In this document: piece after piece, positions 3 to 5,230 of the stretch
Layout: every line of letters begins with the position of its first letter
Numbering within the stretch: position 1 is the first letter of the stretch
From: a virus
IMG/VR virus record: IMGVR_UViG_3300024327_000031
Location: 1 to 27,461 of that record
Length of the DNA stretch: 27,461 nucleotides
Direction: 5' to 3' (one strand)
The notes under the pieces: generated by a model
Told to the model about the DNA's origin: nothing
Databases searched by the model: none
Seen by the model: the letters and a program-made list of their open reading frames with translations, nothing else
Translations under genes and position numbers: made by a program

Positions 3-1070
3 TTATTCATCCATGTTAAGGGCTTCATCATAAATATTCTTTAATAACTTCTTTACTTTAACCTTCTCATCCGTCTTACTACCATCCATAGCATCTACAT
101 ATTCATCTAAGAAATCTGATGTATTGCCAATCTCTACATCCTCATCGTCACCTTCAGCATACCTAGCACTATACTCTGATAAGTCTTCAAGTATAGTGAA
201 ATCTGCTAAATCTGATTCATATAGTCTATCAACAAATGATTCATATTCACCTGTATTATTTTTATTCTCTACTATAAGTTTTACAATCTTACTCTTATAA
301 TACTGTGTATCTATTGTTGAATAATCTGTATTTTCATCATCATAATAGATTTTCTCAAACAACCTAAACTTGTTACGGATAAACTCTAGCTCTCTGGTTT
401 CAGTATCAAACACATGAAAACCTCTAGGGTCATCATAGTCGTTCCAAGTGATTTCATAAGGAGCTCCAAGATAATGTATATTCTCTTTGCTTGACTTATG
501 ATGATAATGTCCAGAACATACTACTTCATATTTGTTGAATATATCTTTTGAGATACCATCCTCAGAATTATATCCTTTGTACATTGCAAATCCAGCAATT
601 TCTAAATGTCCTAATGCAACTTGTGATTTAGAATTCTTAATAAACTTTACAGTATTATCATAGTTCTCTGAATTTATCCAAGGGATTAAATCAATATCAA
701 TTTCACCCACATGAATTGTTTCGGCTTCTGGATATACTGAAACATTATCATAATGCCCATAAAGTAATTCAGAACTATTAACAGAATTTGTATTTCTATA
801 ATAAGTAGAATGATTGCCTACAATAGAATGTAATTTAATATCACGTTCTAAATAAATATCAAAATAGAACTGTCTGACTTTATCAAGTGTATTAAAATTA
901 ACAAATTTTCTGCGATCAAAAGTATCGCCAAGATCAATAACAGTACAAATATTATTTTCAGACAAATATGGAAAAAATTGTTCACGGTAAAAGGTCTCTA
1001 TGTGATTCAAAAAGTTTTGACTGTCCTGCTTCCCTCCGAAATGTTGATCTGTTATCAGAGCGATTTTCAT
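3..1070 (-). CDS. 47: gp47-like recombination endonuclease subunit (SbcD/Mre11 family)
   Basis: This is the nuclease subunit of the gp46/gp47 complex, which in T4 resects DNA ends for recombination-dependent replication. The calcineurin-like phosphoesterase motifs are all present: D8-x-H10, G48-D49-x-x-D52, G85-N86-H87, G154-H155 and G187-H188-x-H190. The block LGAPYEITWNDYDD near residue 201 is typical of the T4 family. The open frame extends upstream to 1211, but I place the start at 1070 because the protein then begins MKIALITDQHFGG, as family members do, and the codon is preceded by GGGAG at good spacing. This gives 355 residues, close to T4 gp47 (339). The upstream part of the frame is better explained by the overlapping zinc-ribbon gene. 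The gp46 ATPase partner is expected just outside the window. Confidence 0.93.
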   Translation of the reverse strand: MKIALITDQHFGGKQDSQNFLNHIETFYREQFFPYLSENNICTVIDLGDTFDRRKFVNFNTLDKVRQFYFDIYLERDIKLHSIVGNHSTYYRNTNSVNSSELLYGHYDNVSVYPEAETIHVGEIDIDLIPWINSENYDNTVKFIKNSKSQVALGHLEIAGFAMYKGYNSEDGISKDIFNKYEVVCSGHYHHKSSKENIHYLGAPYEITWNDYDDPRGFHVFDTETRELEFIRNKFRLFEKIYYDDENTDYSTIDTQYYKSKIVKLIVENKNNTGEYESFVDRLYESDLADFTILEDLSEYSARYAEGDDEDVEIGNTSDFLDEYVDAMDGSKTDEKVKVKKLLKNIYDEALNMDE

Positions 1071-1233
1071 AATGTTTCTCCCATTTAAACTTGCACCTGC
1101 TACATTGAAAAGATTGTACTGTTGAGCCATCTTCATTGTGAGATATGGAAAATCCACAATTTCTAAAACTATGGTCTGGCTCAAACTGTTTACATCTGGA
1201 ACATTCTTCAAAAGCCATAACGTGATAATCCAT
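982..1233 (-). CDS. Small zinc-ribbon protein overlapping the start of gp47
   Basis: This 83-residue protein has no function I recognise. It carries two CSRC knuckles (near residues 11-14 and 44-47) separated by about 29 residues with another Cys between, which is a typical zinc-ribbon spacing. That pattern makes the frame credible even though its last 89 bases lie inside gp47 in another frame. The start at 1233 has GGGGAAG just upstream; an internal ATG at 1221 is an alternative. It is the first gene behind one of the three conserved TTGTAT promoters, with a leader of about 20 bases. The C-terminal half that overlaps gp47 is polar and probably unstructured. A nucleic-acid or RNA polymerase binding role is possible but is only inference. 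Confidence 0.6.
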   Translation of the reverse strand: MDYHVMAFEECSRCKQFEPDHSFRNCGFSISHNEDGSTVQSFQCSRCKFKWEKHYENRSDNRSTFRREAGQSKLFESHRDLLP

Positions 1234-1259: not shown

Positions 1260-1300
1260 AGTATACTAAATTATAGACTATAATACAAGGAAAAACTTTA
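1260..1300 (-). promoter_or_regulatory. Conserved TTGTAT promoter, copy 1 (zinc ribbon + gp47)
   Basis: On the minus strand a TTGTAT hexamer (1288-1283) is followed after exactly 17 bases by TATACT (1265-1260). The hexamer is preceded by the box AAAGTTTTTCC, which abuts the gp55 stop codon. The same box and spacing recur at 4530-4570 and 5191-5230. Predicted transcription starts about 20 bases before the zinc-ribbon gene. It resembles a host-sigma promoter with an added upstream element. Confidence 0.72.
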
Positions 1301-1822
1301 CTACCCGAAATAAAACTCCAAATTAGGCTTCTTTTTCTTCTTTTTAGTAGGATTTACAGCATATTTTTCATGGGTTCTAAGATAATCTACCCAATCCTTA
1401 GTGATTTTTTTGTTATCTTCACCAGCTGTATGAATTTCATTTAGTATACCTTCACGTTCAACTAGCAGATACTTAATGTGCATCAGCTTTCGTTCTTTAA
1501 CTATTCTTCTCACATATGCATGATGTATAATCTGTGTAAAATATGAAAAAGGATTCTTCGATTTATCTGGATTGAAATTGTGAGCATACAGCAAACAATT
1601 CTCGATTCCATCAGAAATTAAATCATCGCGGAATGTGTAATTTATAAAATTAGGACGCATAGCAAGATGTTCACAAATCTTCAAAAAACACTCACCCATA
1701 TATTCTGTAGTAGGTGGGTCATTTTCTTCAACTTCACGATTATCTAAAACTCTCTGCTTCCATTTTTTCATCTCAGTAAAAAATAATTCATTATCAACGT
1801 AATGTTTTCTTTTATCAGTCAC
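1301..1822 (-). CDS. 55: gp55-like late-transcription sigma factor
   Basis: gp55 replaces the host sigma factor on RNA polymerase and reads the TATAAATA late promoters, which are present elsewhere in this window. The stretch around residues 63-113 (DLISDGIENCLLYAHNF, then NPFSYFTQ and an RRIVKERK basic patch) corresponds to the sigma region 2-like core of T4 gp55. The C-terminus ends PNLEFYFG after a lysine-rich linker, matching the hydrophobic sliding-clamp-binding tail that couples late transcription to replication in T4. Length is 173 residues against 185 in T4. The start is GTG at 1822; its GTGA overlaps the dUTPase stop codon, implying translational coupling, and AGGA lies just upstream. 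Confidence 0.92.
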   Translation of the reverse strand: MTDKRKHYVDNELFFTEMKKWKQRVLDNREVEENDPPTTEYMGECFLKICEHLAMRPNFINYTFRDDLISDGIENCLLYAHNFNPDKSKNPFSYFTQIIHHAYVRRIVKERKLMHIKYLLVEREGILNEIHTAGEDNKKITKDWVDYLRTHEKYAVNPTKKKKKKPNLEFYFG

Positions 1823-2283
1823 TTTCCTGTACTCCCTAATCCACCTTCACCACGTTCCGAATCAGAAAGTTCTGCAACTTCTGTAAGGGTTGCAGTTGTT
1901 ATAGGAGCTACAACCATCTGTGCAATACGTTCACCTTTTTTAACATCATAAGCATGATGGTCATGGTTATGTAATATAACTTTTATTTCACCACGATAAC
2001 CAGAGTCAATTGTGCCTGGGCTGTTCAATACACAAATACCATGTTTAGCAGATAATCCAGACCTAGACCTTATTTGTACTTCATAACCTTCTGGAATTTC
2101 TAAATATAATCCAGTAGGAATTACTGCCCAATTAAATGCCTTTAATCTAACATCTTCAGCTGCACATATATCCATACCAGCATCACCTTCTCTTGCATAG
2201 TGTGGTAATGGATTTTCACTTTTATTCACTATCTTAATATTCATAGTATTTCTCAAACCAAGTGTAAATTGATTCCCTTTCAT
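1819..2283 (-). CDS. dut: Trimeric dUTPase
   Basis: The enzyme hydrolyses dUTP to dUMP and pyrophosphate, keeping uracil out of phage DNA and feeding dTMP synthesis. All five motifs of the trimeric family are present: motif I GDAGMDICA (33-41), II RSRSGLSAKHG (72-82), III NSPGTIDSGYRGEI (87-100, with catalytic D93 and Y96), IV GERIAQMVVAPI (117-128) and V RGEGGLGSTGK (144-154). The 154-residue length is normal. I keep the start at 2283 because GAGG sits five bases before it; an internal ATG at 2244 would give the more usual N-terminus MNIKIVN but has only a weak GAGA upstream. T4 itself uses a different dCTPase/dUTPase, so this is a marine-type replacement. Confidence 0.95.
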   Translation of the reverse strand: MKGNQFTLGLRNTMNIKIVNKSENPLPHYAREGDAGMDICAAEDVRLKAFNWAVIPTGLYLEIPEGYEVQIRSRSGLSAKHGICVLNSPGTIDSGYRGEIKVILHNHDHHAYDVKKGERIAQMVVAPITTATLTEVAELSDSERGEGGLGSTGK

Positions 2284-2304
2284 AATATCCTCAAAGATTA
2301 ATAA

Positions 2305-2499
2305 TTAATAACCGTTAGTATTAATACAATAAATTGTTTCATGTTTTGGTAAACCAATTTTCTTGAAACAATTTACAGCACCACAACTACAAGTAAAATC
2401 GTTATAGTATACAGTTCCACCAAATCCTTCACTCGTCTTTTCCTGCTCCGTCTTCTTTTCGCACTTGTGACAATGCTTCAAGCTCTTCTTCATTTTCAT
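2305..2499 (-). CDS. Small zinc-binding protein of unknown function
   Basis: This 64-residue basic protein has a CHKC knuckle (residues 10-13) and a CSCG knuckle (37-40), the layout of a minimal zinc ribbon, plus two further cysteines. I do not recognise a specific family. The first ATG (2499) is very close to a GAGGA sequence, so the second ATG at 2493 may be used. Its beginning overlaps the end of the 53-residue gene upstream, and it lies in the uvsY-uvsW-dut-55 run, so it is probably co-transcribed with replication and recombination genes. Confidence 0.62.
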   Translation of the reverse strand: MKMKKSLKHCHKCEKKTEQEKTSEGFGGTVYYNDFTCSCGAVNCFKKIGLPKHETIYCINTNGY

Positions 2500-2590
2500 C
2501 GTCCTCTATAAAAAGTTTTTTCTGTTTAAGAATATGAAGTTTCTTTTTTTCAAATTTATTCTTCACTACTTTCTTGTATGTCTTACCCAT
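2429..2590 (-). CDS. 53-residue charged small protein downstream of uvsW
   Basis: A short frame starts at ATG 2590 (MGKTYKKVVKNKFEKKKL) and ends at TGA 2429. It has a lysine-rich first half and an acidic middle (IEDDENEEELEAL). It is preceded by AAGGAAATTGAG, a usable ribosome binding site, and fills the otherwise empty 100-base gap between uvsW and the zinc-ribbon gene, overlapping the latter by 71 bases. I do not recognise the family. Its tight packing into the gap and the ribosome binding site support it, but its small size keeps confidence moderate. Confidence 0.5.
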   Translation of the reverse strand: MGKTYKKVVKNKFEKKKLHILKQKKLFIEDDENEEELEALSQVRKEDGAGKDE

Positions 2591-2601
2591 CTCAATTTCC
2601 T

Positions 2602-4089
2602 TTATAAAGTTATTTCTCTAATGTTATAATCAAACTTTTCACCAGTATATGTTTTAACTCGCTCCTTCCAATGTTTAATGCCATAGTTCTGGTGTTTCTT
2701 CCATGATAAATCATCGACAATATCAAATAATATAGCTTTATTGTCTTTATCATCCAACCTCAAAACCCTACCAATGGATTGAAGATTTCTTATTTTTCCT
2801 TTGTAGGGGTGTGAAAATATCAAGGTTTGTAGATTTTTGATATTAACACCTGTAGATAAAACACCCGATGATGCTACGATAATAGAGTTTTCAATTTCAG
2901 TTACCTGTCGTATCTTCTCTCTATCTTCAACTGATGTCTCACCAGCTATAAAGAAAATATTTCTATCTGTCTTTAATTTAGACCGTAATATTCTCTCTAA
3001 AACCTTACCATGCTTCTCTACATAATTAAACAATACTAGAACATTACCTTTCCTAGCTAATGCTAACTCACATATAAATTCATTCCGTTTTTTACTGGAA
3101 ACTATAAAGTCAATCTCTTCCTGATATGTGGCTGTTTTTAGTTGTTTTCTCTCATCATCATCGTATTTCAACATCAAACACTCAATCTTTAAGTCGGATA
3201 TATGTTTATCATCCATTAACTCTTTTGATGTTACTGCTTGGTATGTCTTACCAAATAAACCCTCTAATACTAGCTTATTTGTCTTGGAATCTGTAAGAGT
3301 ACCAGTAGTACCAAACCGATATCTACAAGTAGTCATTTTCTCTAAGATACCTTTAAGACTCTGGGCATTACATAGGTGCGCTTCGTCACCAATAACCATA
3401 CCAAATTTCTTGAAGTATTGGGGCCCTAAACGAAATAATGATTGCCATGTACTTATGTATATCTGCTTCTCTGTTTCTTTTTCTTTACCAGAATATATCA
3501 TGTGACATTGATCTTCTACATTCCAATCAGGTAGAGCTGATGAATAATCTTTAAAATCATTATACATCTGTGTTACCAGATTTGTAGTAGGTACTAATAT
3601 CAGTATCTTATCATTCTCTATAAACTGTTGATGCCATCTAATTAATGAATATATAACTAGACTCTTACCTGATGATGTAGGTGACAACAACAACGCACGT
3701 TCCTGTTTTGCACAATGTATAAACGATGATATCTGATAATCTCTAGGGGCAATAGGAACATTCTTACAATGGAGTTTTAACGAATCGAAAAACTCTTTTA
3801 TTTCTGCAACACCCATACCCTTTAACTTCTGAGCCTCTACGATGTCAGATTGTAATTTGTAAGAATGTTTCTCTGCCCAATCTTTTAAATATGGGTATAG
3901 TCCAAAATACATCTGTCCTGTTTGTATATTAAACAAACGGATTTTTCCATCCCACATCTTTGCTCGAACTTTAGGATGAAACTGTGCATTAGGTACTTTG
4001 AATGAAAAAAATTCATTCAGCTCATAAGCAATATGTCTCTCACAAGAAACTTGTAAGAATGATTCATTTAATTTACCTACAACAATCAT
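2602..4089 (-). CDS. uvsW: UvsW-like recombination helicase (superfamily 2)
   Basis: UvsW unwinds R-loops and branched DNA intermediates and helps T4 switch from origin-driven to recombination-driven replication. Visible motifs are Walker A SPTSSGKS (136-143), DEAH (235-238), the TGT-type motif III near 262-264, ASSGVLSTGVN near 406-416 and motif VI QSIGRVLR (437-444). The N-terminal 100 residues, with KMWDGKIRLFN, match the UvsW N-domain that feeds substrate DNA. Length is 495 residues, close to T4 (about 503). Its ATG overlaps the uvsY stop codon (ATGA), indicating translational coupling, so it is expressed from the promoter in front of uvsY. Confidence 0.95.
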   Translation of the reverse strand: MIVVGKLNESFLQVSCERHIAYELNEFFSFKVPNAQFHPKVRAKMWDGKIRLFNIQTGQMYFGLYPYLKDWAEKHSYKLQSDIVEAQKLKGMGVAEIKEFFDSLKLHCKNVPIAPRDYQISSFIHCAKQERALLLSPTSSGKSLVIYSLIRWHQQFIENDKILILVPTTNLVTQMYNDFKDYSSALPDWNVEDQCHMIYSGKEKETEKQIYISTWQSLFRLGPQYFKKFGMVIGDEAHLCNAQSLKGILEKMTTCRYRFGTTGTLTDSKTNKLVLEGLFGKTYQAVTSKELMDDKHISDLKIECLMLKYDDDERKQLKTATYQEEIDFIVSSKKRNEFICELALARKGNVLVLFNYVEKHGKVLERILRSKLKTDRNIFFIAGETSVEDREKIRQVTEIENSIIVASSGVLSTGVNIKNLQTLIFSHPYKGKIRNLQSIGRVLRLDDKDNKAILFDIVDDLSWKKHQNYGIKHWKERVKTYTGEKFDYNIREITL

Positions 4090-4523
4090 CCAAGCTCACC
4101 ATTTAAAAATTTCTTCCACTTTATTGCATTACCAATATTAAACGACAAATTCATAATAGACTTGACTTGATCTGTTAATAGATTCAGTTTCTCTTCCTGT
4201 GCCTTTACTTTTAAATGACAAACATTTAAAGCACCATCGGCCTCTAAGAATTTATCTATATCTGCTTTTAATATATTAAGATTAAATGGTTCTTTTTCGT
4301 ATACTTCGGGGTCAGCTTTTCCTGTATAATATATCCATCTATCTCTTTTTAAAACTTTATATTCAGTTCTAAAATACTCTAGCGCAAGTTTTTCTTGGTA
4401 GATTAGTTGATGGTATCTTGCACACAGCTCTGGCACTCGGAGAGATGCAATATCAATATTACATTCCTCTTTCAAGAAGGCTGCGTCCTTGTCAATCATT
4501 TGATTTATCTCTTCAATTTTCAT
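4086..4523 (-). CDS. uvsY: UvsY-like recombination mediator
   Basis: UvsY loads the UvsX recombinase onto single-stranded DNA coated with gp32. The 145-residue protein is helical and charged. The segment with YYTGKADPEVYEKEPF resembles the conserved YYSGRGD-type region of T4 UvsY, and the C-terminal segment SFNIGNAIKWKKFLNG corresponds to the T4 end RGFAIKHIQDMRAFE. Position directly before uvsW matches T4-like gene order. No ribosome binding site precedes the ATG: the TATAAT of the upstream promoter ends only six bases before it, so the mRNA may begin at the start codon itself. Confidence 0.88.
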   Translation of the reverse strand: MKIEEINQMIDKDAAFLKEECNIDIASLRVPELCARYHQLIYQEKLALEYFRTEYKVLKRDRWIYYTGKADPEVYEKEPFNLNILKADIDKFLEADGALNVCHLKVKAQEEKLNLLTDQVKSIMNLSFNIGNAIKWKKFLNGELG

Positions 4524-4529
4524 ATACTA

Positions 4530-4570
4530 ATTATAACAAAAAATTATGCAATATACAAGGAAAAACTTTA
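4530..4570 (-). promoter_or_regulatory. Conserved TTGTAT promoter, copy 2 (uvsY-uvsW)
   Basis: On the minus strand AAAGTTTTTCC leads into TTGTAT (4558-4553), then 17 bases, then a perfect TATAAT (4535-4530). The upstream box overlaps the gp3 stop codon. The ATG of uvsY starts six bases after TATAAT, which is where transcription itself would be expected to begin. Confidence 0.75.
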
Positions 4571-5083
4571 AGTGATTTTTTCTATGGAAAATGAGCCTGT
4601 GTAAGCAAAGGAAACATCCAATATAATGGGCTCTAGCGATGTAGCTGCAGCATCTAATTCAATACTTCCAAGTGATACTGGGAAAGCATCTCTAAATGTA
4701 ATGCTGTAATTTGGGTTGGATTTATTAGTATTTATTATGATATTCATATCTGATCTTAGATTTTCAGTTGGTTCAACATTACTATTATTTAAGTTAAACT
4801 GTGTGTCATTCTCTGGAAAACCTATAGAAATAAGCCAATTATATATTTCTAAATAATTTGACAAATCTTCACTAACTATAAAATTTAAAGTTAGCTGCTC
4901 AAAAAGAAGTTTATCGCCTAATACTGGTATATCTGAAAATGGAGTAGCTTGACTAGCTAATCCTAAACCTATTGATGGTATATTTATTCGCTGACAAAAG
5001 AAATTAACATTAGGCAAACGGGTAAAGTTAGTTTCAAACGAAACTACATTTAATTGATTTATCTCATTCGGCTGTAATGGCAT
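4568..5083 (-). CDS. 3: gp3-like tail tube terminator / tail completion protein
   Basis: In T4, gp3 caps the tail tube and stabilises the sheath. This 171-residue protein (T4 about 176) has the pattern I associate with gp3 and tail-tube-fold proteins: a central INIPSIGLG segment, then LTLNFIVSEDLSNYLEIYNW (residues about 65-84), then a C-terminal strand with DVSFAYTGSFSIEKI. The position between gp23 and uvsY is where marine T4-like phages carry gene 3. An exact late promoter lies 38 bases upstream and the third TTGTAT promoter farther upstream, so it may be made both before and during the late phase. A general gp19/gp54-like tube protein is the alternative. Confidence 0.7.
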   Translation of the reverse strand: MPLQPNEINQLNVVSFETNFTRLPNVNFFCQRINIPSIGLGLASQATPFSDIPVLGDKLLFEQLTLNFIVSEDLSNYLEIYNWLISIGFPENDTQFNLNNSNVEPTENLRSDMNIIINTNKSNPNYSITFRDAFPVSLGSIELDAAATSLEPIILDVSFAYTGSFSIEKIT

Positions 5084-5121
5084 TTAATAATACTCTAAAG
5101 AATTAATATAAGTTATATAGC

Positions 5122-5129
5122 TATTTATA
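5122..5129 (-). promoter_or_regulatory. T4-type late promoter before gp3
   Basis: Exact TATAAATA on the minus strand, 38 bases upstream of the gp3 start, in a non-coding gap. It is the T4 gp55-dependent late promoter sequence. A second TATAAATA at 5242-5235 lies inside the last codons of the nuclease gene and may be chance. Confidence 0.75.
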
Positions 5130-5190
5130 ATACTTATTAAAAAGAAGTAAATATATAAACAATTAGTTATCTGAACCAACCCACATATCA

Positions 5191-5230
5191 ATAATAACAC
5201 ACTAGAAACAGCAATACAAGGAAGAAGTTA
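5191..5230 (-). promoter_or_regulatory. Conserved TTGTAT promoter, copy 3 (upstream of gp3)
   Basis: On the minus strand AACTTCTTCC leads into TTGTAT (5219-5214), then 17 bases, then TATTAT (5196-5191). The box overlaps the nuclease stop codon. Two bases of the upstream box differ from copies 1 and 2. It would give a leader of about 100 bases before gp3 that contains the late promoter. Confidence 0.65.

Follow-up and report, generated by a model that had tools for sequence, protein, structure and literature searches.

Middle promoters have been described in T4 for genes 43, 46, 47, 61 and uvsY (PMC2988021). The MotA box of these promoters, (a/t)3TGCTTtA, is centred at -30, replaces the -35 element and lies 12 +/- 1 bp from the -10, and TGn is found in about half of them (PMC2988021). 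T4 oriF is composed of a middle-mode promoter and an A+T-rich unwinding element (PMC3016281) and is driven by PuvsY (PMC2988021). In phage Mu, the Mor element of Pm is centred at -43.5 (PMC4390567). T4-like middle promoters, along with motA and/or asiA, have been described as missing from marine T4-like cyanophages (PMC5780444), and the middle and late promoters of pelagimyophages escaped detection by published methods (PMC7029224). No middle promoters could be identified in the methylophage Melnitz, for which the authors prefer an explanation by simplified regulation and name promoters too divergent for detection as the alternative (PMC9004378). The element analysed here is very probably an early/middle-gene promoter class of an uncultured marine T4-like lineage, predicted to give leaderless messages at some genes and to be read at its upstream box by a putative phage factor. 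No description of the motif was found among titles and abstract openings, including literature with CCTTGTAT; these cover the literature in part, so that absence of an earlier description is unproven.

Three copies of the element in the window

The window is the whole stretch of 27,461 nucleotides that was analysed. It had earlier been noted to contain three minus-strand copies of TTCCTTGTAT-N17-TATNNT, and all three are present as described, each on the gene strand. Copy 1 reads AAGTTT-TTCCTTGTAT-N17-TATACT (box from 1298, -10 at 1265-1260), copy 2 AAGTTT-TTCCTTGTAT-N17-TATAAT (box from 4568, -10 at 4535-4530) and copy 3 AACTTC-TTCCTTGTAT-N17-TATTAT (box from 5229, -10 at 5196-5191). A search of the window with spacers of 15-19 bases returned exactly these three copies; 0.02 were expected, and three or more copies were seen in 0/100 shuffles. 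The features of the three loci are as follows.

3..1211, minus strand: gp47 (SbcD-like) ORF (phrog_100, E 1.8e-109)
982..1233, minus strand: zinc-ribbon-like ORF, first gene after the 1260-1298 promoter (ORF; no PHROG match)
1260..1265, minus strand: -10 hexamer TATACT of the predicted zinc-ribbon/gp47 unit promoter (17-base spacer)
1283..1288, minus strand: -35 hexamer TTGTAT of the predicted zinc-ribbon/gp47 unit promoter (sequence)
1289..1298, minus strand: upstream box AAGTTTTTCC of the predicted zinc-ribbon/gp47 unit promoter, at predicted -45 to -36 (sequence and consensus)
1301..1822, minus strand: gp55-like late sigma factor, gene before the first promoter (phrog_234, E 1e-52)
2602..4089, minus strand: uvsW helicase, second gene of the PuvsY unit (tblastn against annotated phages)
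4086..4523, minus strand: uvsY, predicted leaderless message (phrog_231, E 1e-34)
4530..4535, minus strand: -10 hexamer TATAAT of PuvsY; the +1 expected from it, 4523, is the A of the uvsY ATG
4553..4558, minus strand: -35 hexamer TTGTAT of PuvsY (sequence)
4559..4568, minus strand: upstream box AAGTTTTTCC of PuvsY, overlapping the gp3-like stop codon (sequence)
4568..5083, minus strand: gp3-like / tail-tube-like ORF with box promoter and late-type promoter (phrog_45; Syn9 counterpart)
5122..5129, minus strand: late-type promoter TATAAATA of the gp3-like ORF, separate from the box promoter
5191..5196, minus strand: -10 hexamer TATTAT of the predicted gp3-proximal promoter; predicted +1 at 5184, G-rich start GTGGGTTGGTTCAG, then A+T-rich
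5214..5219, minus strand: -35 hexamer TTGTAT of the predicted gp3-proximal promoter (sequence)
5220..5229, minus strand: upstream box AACTTCTTCC of the predicted gp3-proximal promoter (sequence)

The contact between box and stop codon claimed earlier was seen at all three copies. Each box overlaps the stop of the preceding gene or starts at most 2 bases from it, these genes ending at 1301 (gp55), 4568 (gp3-like ORF) and 5228 (nuclease ORF). The gene names were likewise correct, UvsY, gp47/SbcD and gp55 being identified through PHROG and UvsW through tblastn against annotated phages. The label 'gp3' also fits: ORF 4568-5083 has a tail-tube PHROG as its match, and the Syn9 gene in the corresponding position bears the annotation 'tail completion and sheath stabilizer, T4 gp3-like'. 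The late-type TATAAATA at 5129-5122 is a second, separate element of this ORF and lies 38 bases 5' of its ATG. At the zinc-ribbon/gp47 promoter the +1 predicted from the -10 is at 1253, which would give a 20-nt leader with GGGGAAG before the ATG at 1233.

Consensus, gene content and distribution

The wider consensus of the element is AACTTY-TTCCTTGTAT-N12-TnTGn-TATAAT. It possesses the features of a sigma-70-type promoter, namely -35 and -10 hexamers, a dominant 17-base spacing, an extended -10 and a purine at the predicted +1. In 35 distinct uvsY upstream regions anchored on the ATG alone, C is found at -37 in 33 and at -36 in 33, TTCCTT or TCCCTT is present in 34, and the extended -10 shows T at -15 in 34 and G at -14 in 30. 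Only locus L161 among the distinct uvsY regions was without the box. Sites with the exact core (n=56) have a purine at the predicted +1 in 52 cases and T at -1 in 47. A matrix partly trained on the same contigs that it scanned gave, at score 15 over 341 kb in 8 contigs, 44 sense sites, 4 antisense sites and none on the reversed sequence. Gene interiors make up 83% of the bases, although 42/44 sites fall outside them; the other two lie inside coding regions, so the matrix does have false positives.

The original prediction turned on whether the box also stands before other replication genes of this genome or its relatives, and it does. Among replication and recombination genes, uvsY, gp43, gp47 and the primase unit are headed by it. 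The wider consensus stands before uvsY, gp43 and the gp47 unit, and also before queE, small ORFs and the CobS- and CobT-like genes. Among the 8 clade contigs examined, the box heads uvsY in 6/6 contigs holding this gene, and gp43, the CobS-like gene, the CobT-like gene, queE and the ORF before the gp61 primase in 3/3 each. It heads gp47 in 3/5 clade contigs, the remaining 2/5 having no adjacent box. The box is kept downstream of unrelated preceding genes. No box was found before gp17, gp18, gp20 or gp23 in the 8 clade contigs, and gp45, gp44, gp62, regA, gp32 and gp59 have no box of their own in the clade contigs, though they are expected middle genes. Several structural genes, gp19 above all, carry the T4-type late TATAAATA in place of the box; (T/A)ATAAATA is found separately from the box, for example before gp19 in 6/6 contigs. 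Box and late promoter divide the genes of the clade contigs between them. The consensus itself is not of the T4 late type, having TATAAT as its -10 with a -35 present.

The element showed a narrow distribution. Close and far loci were sampled from among the matches listed. In 40 close loci, 3 of them without a usable uvsY start, the decamer TTCCTTGTAT occurs 60 times, 60/60 on the gene strand, and 51/60 have TATNNT at exactly 17 bases, whereas the other spacings between 13 and 21 bases count 0-7 each. The 40 sister-lineage loci contain the decamer three times, never with TATNNT. In one check of nine loci, two did not fit the search pattern. The strict form was found in 93 stretches of viral contigs and in 2 stretches of 84,980 cellular (GTDB) genomes, both in Clostridium. 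A strict match is missing in two clade contigs, of which G002 has the variant TTCCTTACAT and G004 has TCCCTTGTAT at its locus. Among isolates, matrix sites scoring at least 15 number one in 140 kb of Mosig (score 15.3), none in 31 kb of Melnitz and none in 40 kb of AG-345-L05; the full 149 kb of AG-345-L05 contain no instance of the strict pattern.

A sister-lineage promoter class, TTTAC(A/T)-N17-TATAAT, was found before uvsY in related marine phages. It counts 75 instances at spacing 17 in 40 sampled far loci vs 0-3 per simulated set. With TATAAT it is absent from the 341 kb of the clade and from Mosig; a looser -10 gives 18 and 19 matches, respectively. Where uvsY starts were compared, 33/40 far loci gave a match, 5 of those 33 being without a usable start, and in 13/28 far loci with a uvsY start TATAAT lies 6-11 bases 5' of the ATG without a Shine-Dalgarno sequence. 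The sister class resembles the element described here in its position before uvsY, its 17-base spacer and its frequent TGTGnTATAAT, but has another -35 region and no TTCC box.

Compared with T4 middle promoters, the element heads orthologous genes (uvsY, 43, 47, primase unit) and joins a phage-specific element to a sigma-70 -10, with late genes on a separate promoter. It differs in having AACTTYTTCC at -45 to -36 and in retaining a sigma-like -35, TTGTAT. The consensus does not correspond to a MotA box, as its positions -35 to -30 are occupied by TTGTAT and its spacer varies. The T4 early promoter consensus has an upstream box that differs from AACTTYTTCC. Early promoters of T4 share with the element both -35 and -10 and an extended -10 (PMC2988021), whereas the box here is attached to genes of the T4 middle type. 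Pm of phage Mu is similar in having an upstream element next to or over the -35 that is used by sigma-70 holoenzyme, but Mor binds inverted repeats and no dyad is evident in the present consensus.

Predicted leaderless messages

For uvsY, queE, gp43 and one gene before the primase, the ATG lies at -1 to +3 nt from the predicted +1, and leaderless mRNAs are therefore predicted for these four. The predicted leader length is 0 in 39/42 uvsY sites and 5/5 queE sites, and +3 in 12/14 gp43 sites; of the 224 sites, the 31 lacking an ORF within 260 nt did not enter the leader counts. From the resulting 193, 64 leaders of -1 to 3 nt, representing four gene families (42, 14, 5 and 3 sites), were compared with 84 of 15 to 70 nt. 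Shine-Dalgarno cores were found at 0/64 predicted leaderless sites vs 72/84 leadered sites, an absence partly forced because the search window overlaps the -10. Leaderless phage transcripts have been called frequent, so they are not new as such (PMC5312081). The predicted leaderless uvsY message and the odd anatomy of the gp3-proximal copy go beyond what had been noticed earlier on this DNA.

Proposed mechanism, candidate activator and possible origin

The element would act as a sigma-70-type promoter, with TTGTAT as -35, a 17-base spacer, TGnTATAAT and a purine +1, to which the fixed box AACTTYTTCC at -45 to -36 is added. The -35 and -10 would be read by host RNA polymerase with its primary sigma factor, and the box by a phage-made factor or a phage-modified polymerase in the role of MotA, about one helical turn further upstream than the T4 MotA site. 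The earlier point that an activator could touch DNA here agrees with the box position. Box promoters would serve replication, recombination and nucleotide genes, and gp55-type TATAAATA promoters the structural genes. At uvsY, queE, gp43 and the gene before the primase, transcription would start on the AUG or at most 3 nt from it, while most other box genes would have a longer leader, usually with a Shine-Dalgarno sequence. This reading builds on sequence conservation, spacing, strand, gene partition and distance to the ATG; promoter activity, timing, the activator and leaderless translation are inferred from these. Boxes at replication genes favour the proposed early/middle class distinct from MotA, as does the lack of enrichment of MotA boxes: TGCTT(T/C)A-N11..13-minus-10 occurs once in sense and 12 times in antisense in 8 contigs, without gene-strand enrichment.

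MotA (PF09114) was found in 0/11 records at E <=1, in a search run without a T4 positive control, and AsiA (PF09010) was above cut-off in 0/11; 7 of the 11 are fragmentary clade contigs, and since these are fragments, the missing MotA and AsiA are no proof of absence. One AsiA match below cut-off occurs in Mosig (E 0.011, stop inside). A search for sigma region 4 domains in 10 records gave nothing above cut-off. A 166-aa protein encoded directly after queE in four records (G001, G003, G007 and L272) is a candidate activator of the box, though a weak lead. It shows a ribbon-helix-helix hint below cut-off (PF12651, E 0.044), and its model (mean pLDDT 61.6) has strand-helix-helix order. Its fold search gave nothing at E <=0.001 and one Arc match at E 2.3. 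No match at E 1e-3 was found in Mosig, Syn9 (28 kb), Melnitz (31 kb) or AG-345-L05 (40 kb), and nothing at E 0.01 in the phage collection.

A chance or coding repeat with no role in regulation is a scarcely credible reading of the motif. A few matrix matches do lie inside coding regions, but the 60/60 strand bias, the fixed 17-base spacing, the 42/44 sites outside gene interiors and the conservation after unrelated upstream genes already contradict such a reading. Much more room, although somewhat less than an even chance, is left for unmodified host sigma-70 polymerase acting alone as at T4 early promoters, in which case no phage activator would exist and the box would be a UP-type contact or an extension of the -35. 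The host polymerase may itself prefer promoters with such a box. Small phage ORFs without a family match are often early, and some box promoters head such ORFs. Classic sigma-70 promoters share the TTG of the -35, the TGn, the TATAAT and the 17-base spacer, and no MotA, AsiA or sigma region 4 protein was above cut-off in the records searched; yet specific C residues are kept in the box (33/35 each at -37 and -36), unlike in an A+T-rich UP element, the strict form is nearly missing from cellular genomes (2 stretches), and the sister lineage uses a different -35 region, TTTACW. Host polymerase acting alone differs from the preferred reading, in which a phage factor reads the box, in mechanism alone; the promoter class is common to both.

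The gp3-proximal copy may additionally be viewed as an origin like T4 oriF, in which a G-rich transcript start and an A+T-rich unwinding stretch would yield an R-loop that primes the leading strand. This is unlikely, though not far-fetched. The site combines a predicted promoter with an A+T-rich stretch, and like T4 oriF, ori(uvsY), it has a middle-type promoter and an A+T-rich downstream stretch near uvsY, but it sits one gene upstream of PuvsY and its origin activity is putative. Sites picked for their location (upstream of gp3 and 300-2500 nt before uvsY) contain 5.6 G at +1..+15 vs 2.9 elsewhere (40 sites vs 177 others, p 4e-10), although 5/40 are without a GT start. The GC content of +16..+75 is at the median 3rd percentile for 36 GT-start, G-rich sites in the same 34 loci vs the 49th for 63 other sites; two of the 36 are actually gp47 and uvsY sites, and intergenic DNA is A+T-rich in any case. 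A convergent ORF of at least 150 aa ends within 60 nt of the start at 16/36 of these sites. In other members gp3 begins 54-101 nt downstream of the site, which could be no more than a promoter for that gene. A GC-skew switch was rejected as an origin marker, as no sign change was seen at the gp3-proximal site in 6 contigs.

A broader proposal, quite unlikely, is that marine T4-like phages repeatedly swapped the MotA system for lineage boxes read by phage factors of their own, make leaderless replication messages from these boxes and use one copy beside gp3/uvsY as an R-loop origin. If true, the promoter class (AACTTYTTCC here, TTTACW in the sister lineage) would couple expression to the start of replication, as in T4 with different parts. 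Direct tests are possible for the oriF-like site and for the leaderless messages predicted at uvsY, gp43 and queE. The promoter class may serve as a marker for annotating uncultured genomes and as bait for the factor that took the place of MotA. Since its lineage is related to the pelagimyophages, Melnitz and the marine T4-like cyanophages, so clear a class would also give a handle on gene timing in ocean phages.

A proposed promoter element in the window and its relatives

The three copies of the promoter element described in the window, before the zinc-ribbon/gp47 unit, before uvsY/uvsW and before the gp3-like ORF, were checked on the sequence and agreed with the original prediction in bases, spacing and stop-codon positions. 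Shuffling gave an expected copy number of 0.02 against the 3 seen, and the pattern read backwards had no match in the window. The search scope ends with the record behind it, a 27,461-base viral fragment identical to the window. UvsW relatives in viral contigs formed two tiers: close loci, sharing 68% identity or more (at least 40), and far loci, sharing 46-50% (at least 40). No annotated phage exceeded 60%; the best among the matches listed was Pelagibacter phage Mosig (47%), followed by Melnitz and then cyanophages. We infer that the window phage belongs to an uncultured lineage, sister to pelagimyophages and cyanomyophages.

The TTCCTTGTAT decamer occurred 60 times in the close loci (362 kb), always on the gene strand (60/60). 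TATNNT was found exactly 17 bases past it in 51 of the 60, and other spacings from 13 to 21 were represented 0-7 times each. Five control decamers occurred 2-9 times each in these loci, and each of 20 simulated sets had an element count of 0. In the far loci (433 kb), only 3 decamers were present and none had TATNNT at spacings 13-21. The element is a feature of this lineage. A matrix trained on exact element matches, partly from the contigs scanned, gave 44 sense, 4 antisense and no reversed-sequence sites at score 15 in eight contigs (341 kb including the window); 42 of the 44 were situated outside gene interiors, though interiors represent 83% of bases. Because of this training, 35 distinct uvsY upstream regions aligned by ATG only were used as an unselected test. 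They showed C at -37 and at -36 (33/35 each), G at -33 (29/35), T at -15 (34/35) and G at -14 (30/35). TTCCTT or TCCCTT was present in 34 of the 35, and no box was found upstream of uvsY in the remaining locus, L161.

The 56 exact-core sites gave the wider consensus AACTTY-TTCCTTGTAT-N12-TnTGn-TATAAT; 52 of them had a purine at predicted +1, and 47 had T at -1. The strict pattern was matched in 9 of 20 longer records. It was absent from clade contigs G002 and G004, which carry the variant boxes TTCCTTACAT and TCCCTTGTAT, respectively, both with the -10 at spacing 17. Matrix matches also fell within a conserved coding region, presumably resembling proline dehydrogenase, in L295, L148, L150, G003 and G007, and are probably false positives.

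The far loci showed a parallel pattern, TTTAC(A/T)-N17-TATAAT, often carrying TGTGnTATAAT. At spacing 17, 75 copies were counted over 40 loci (L170-L202) vs 0-3 in simulations. The pattern was not found in clade contigs or Mosig; with a looser -10, they had 18 and 19 matches, respectively. Judged by sequence, it appears to be a second lineage-specific promoter class.

Genes headed by the box and predicted leaders

Gene labels in clade contigs were assigned from Mosig proteins. The box preceded uvsY in all 6 contigs holding this gene and gp43 in 3/3. It also headed the CobS-like gene, the CobT/peptidase-like gene, queE and the ORF preceding primase (3/3 contigs each), gp47 in 3/5, and several small ORFs. 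Family labels of the downstream genes were DNA polymerase, QueE-like, porphyrin biosynthesis (CobS), peptidase and tail tube, and the family search gave no label for several small box-headed ORFs. The 366-369-aa gene before primase presumably encodes a saccharopine-dehydrogenase-type protein. The first ORF after the gp47-unit promoter (window 982-1233) is small and zinc-ribbon-like, has CxxC pairs, and belongs to a cluster of 17 box-downstream ORFs. It resembles TFIIS-type ribbons; its relative had no Pfam match above cut-off. In Mosig (L223), TAGGAT lies within ~15 bases upstream of the ATG of UvsY, CobS and CobT genes; it may represent either a -10 or a Shine-Dalgarno.

No box headed gp17, gp18, gp20 or gp23 in the clade contigs scanned. 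(T/A)ATAAATA was situated 25-27 bases upstream of gp19 in 6/6 contigs, and the gp3-like gene has both the box and a promoter of this type. Against expectation, gp45, gp44, gp62, regA, gp32 and gp59 had no adjacent box in clade contigs; they may be read from upstream promoters, or this lineage may have fewer genes in the class than T4 does. For T4, PMC2988021 lists middle promoters for genes 43, 46, 47 and 61 and presents PuvsY as a MotA-dependent middle promoter also driving an origin.

Leaders were predicted among 224 distinct sites at matrix score of at least 22, of which 193 had an ORF within 260 nt; far loci had no site at this score. The predicted leader was 0 nt at uvsY in 39/42 and at queE in 5/5, and +3 at gp43 in 12/14; the gene preceding primase had predicted leaders of 0, 0 and +1. 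A leader of -1 to 3 was predicted at 64 sites, every one in these four families. Shine-Dalgarno cores were present in 0/64 of them vs 72/84 sites with leaders of 15 to 70, an absence partly forced because the tested stretch overlaps the -10. The spacer from -10 to ATG at uvsY varies in letters and is nearly constant in length. Leaderless starts are predictions from the -10 position; phage transcripts are called often leaderless in PMC5312081. TATAAT was situated 6-11 bases before the uvsY ATG, without Shine-Dalgarno, in 13 of 28 far loci having a uvsY start. Therefore the short distance is common to the lineage and part of the far set, and the -35 region is changed.

The gp3-proximal copy

Sites near gp3 were picked by position (300-2500 nt before uvsY, upstream of gp3; n=40). 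The window feature and its relatives are as follows.

Window 5184-5122, minus strand: gp3-proximal promoter, G-rich initial transcribed sequence and A+T-rich stretch; relatives in L119, L136, L143, L144, L148, L162 and G003

G count in +1 to +15 was 5.6 at the 40 sites vs 2.9 at 177 others (p 4e-10), and 35/40 start with GT or TGT, typically GTnGGTTGGTTCA. A GT-start, G-rich rule in the same 34 loci gave a second set of 36 sites, 2 of which in fact belong to gp47 and uvsY. In this set, GC of +16 to +75 had its median at the 3rd percentile vs the 49th at 63 other sites, and 16/36 faced a convergent ORF of at least 150 aa ending within 60 nt. The convergent ORF opposite the gp3-proximal promoter spans ~800 bases in 7/9 loci, the other 2 not matching the pattern; the one ORF searched (L136) is a fatty-acid desaturase by Pfam. 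In many relatives the promoter is aimed into a convergent gene. As it is kept in place though facing an opposing gene, a role other than making gp3 is suggested. PMC3016281 describes T4 oriF as combining a middle-mode promoter and an A+T-rich unwinding element, and as forming R-loops. The gp3-proximal copy pairs a putative middle-type promoter with an A+T-rich downstream stretch, and possibly acts as a replication origin; GC skew had no sign change at this site in 6 contigs.

Candidate readers and promoter class

The strict element was found in 93 stretches of viral contigs, and a slightly looser pattern in only 2 stretches, both Clostridium, of a genome collection of 84,980 species. Therefore it is not a common host promoter, with the proviso that the collection may not include the true host. 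MotA and AsiA profiles, run without a T4 positive control, had no match above cut-off in any of 11 records (seven lineage contigs, G005 of uncertain placing, and three phage records), and one AsiA match below cut-off in Mosig has a stop inside. The sigma region 4 profile had no match above cut-off in 10 records. MotA boxes with a -10 were matched once in sense vs 12 times in antisense in eight contigs. The window's gp55-like sigma belongs to the T4 type, which recognises TATAAATA without a -35, so it is an unlikely reader of the element. A 166-aa protein was situated directly after queE where both were seen (L207:843-1340; relatives in L211, L204, L039 and L239). It occurs in clade contigs with a weak ribbon-helix-helix signal, had no match in the phage collection, and can be held only as a weak candidate for a putative factor that would read the box, AACTTYTTCC.

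At the level of sequence, lineage conservation, spacing and gene partition favor the early/middle promoter reading first proposed for the element, and support it as a phage middle-type promoter, a variant of that known kind.
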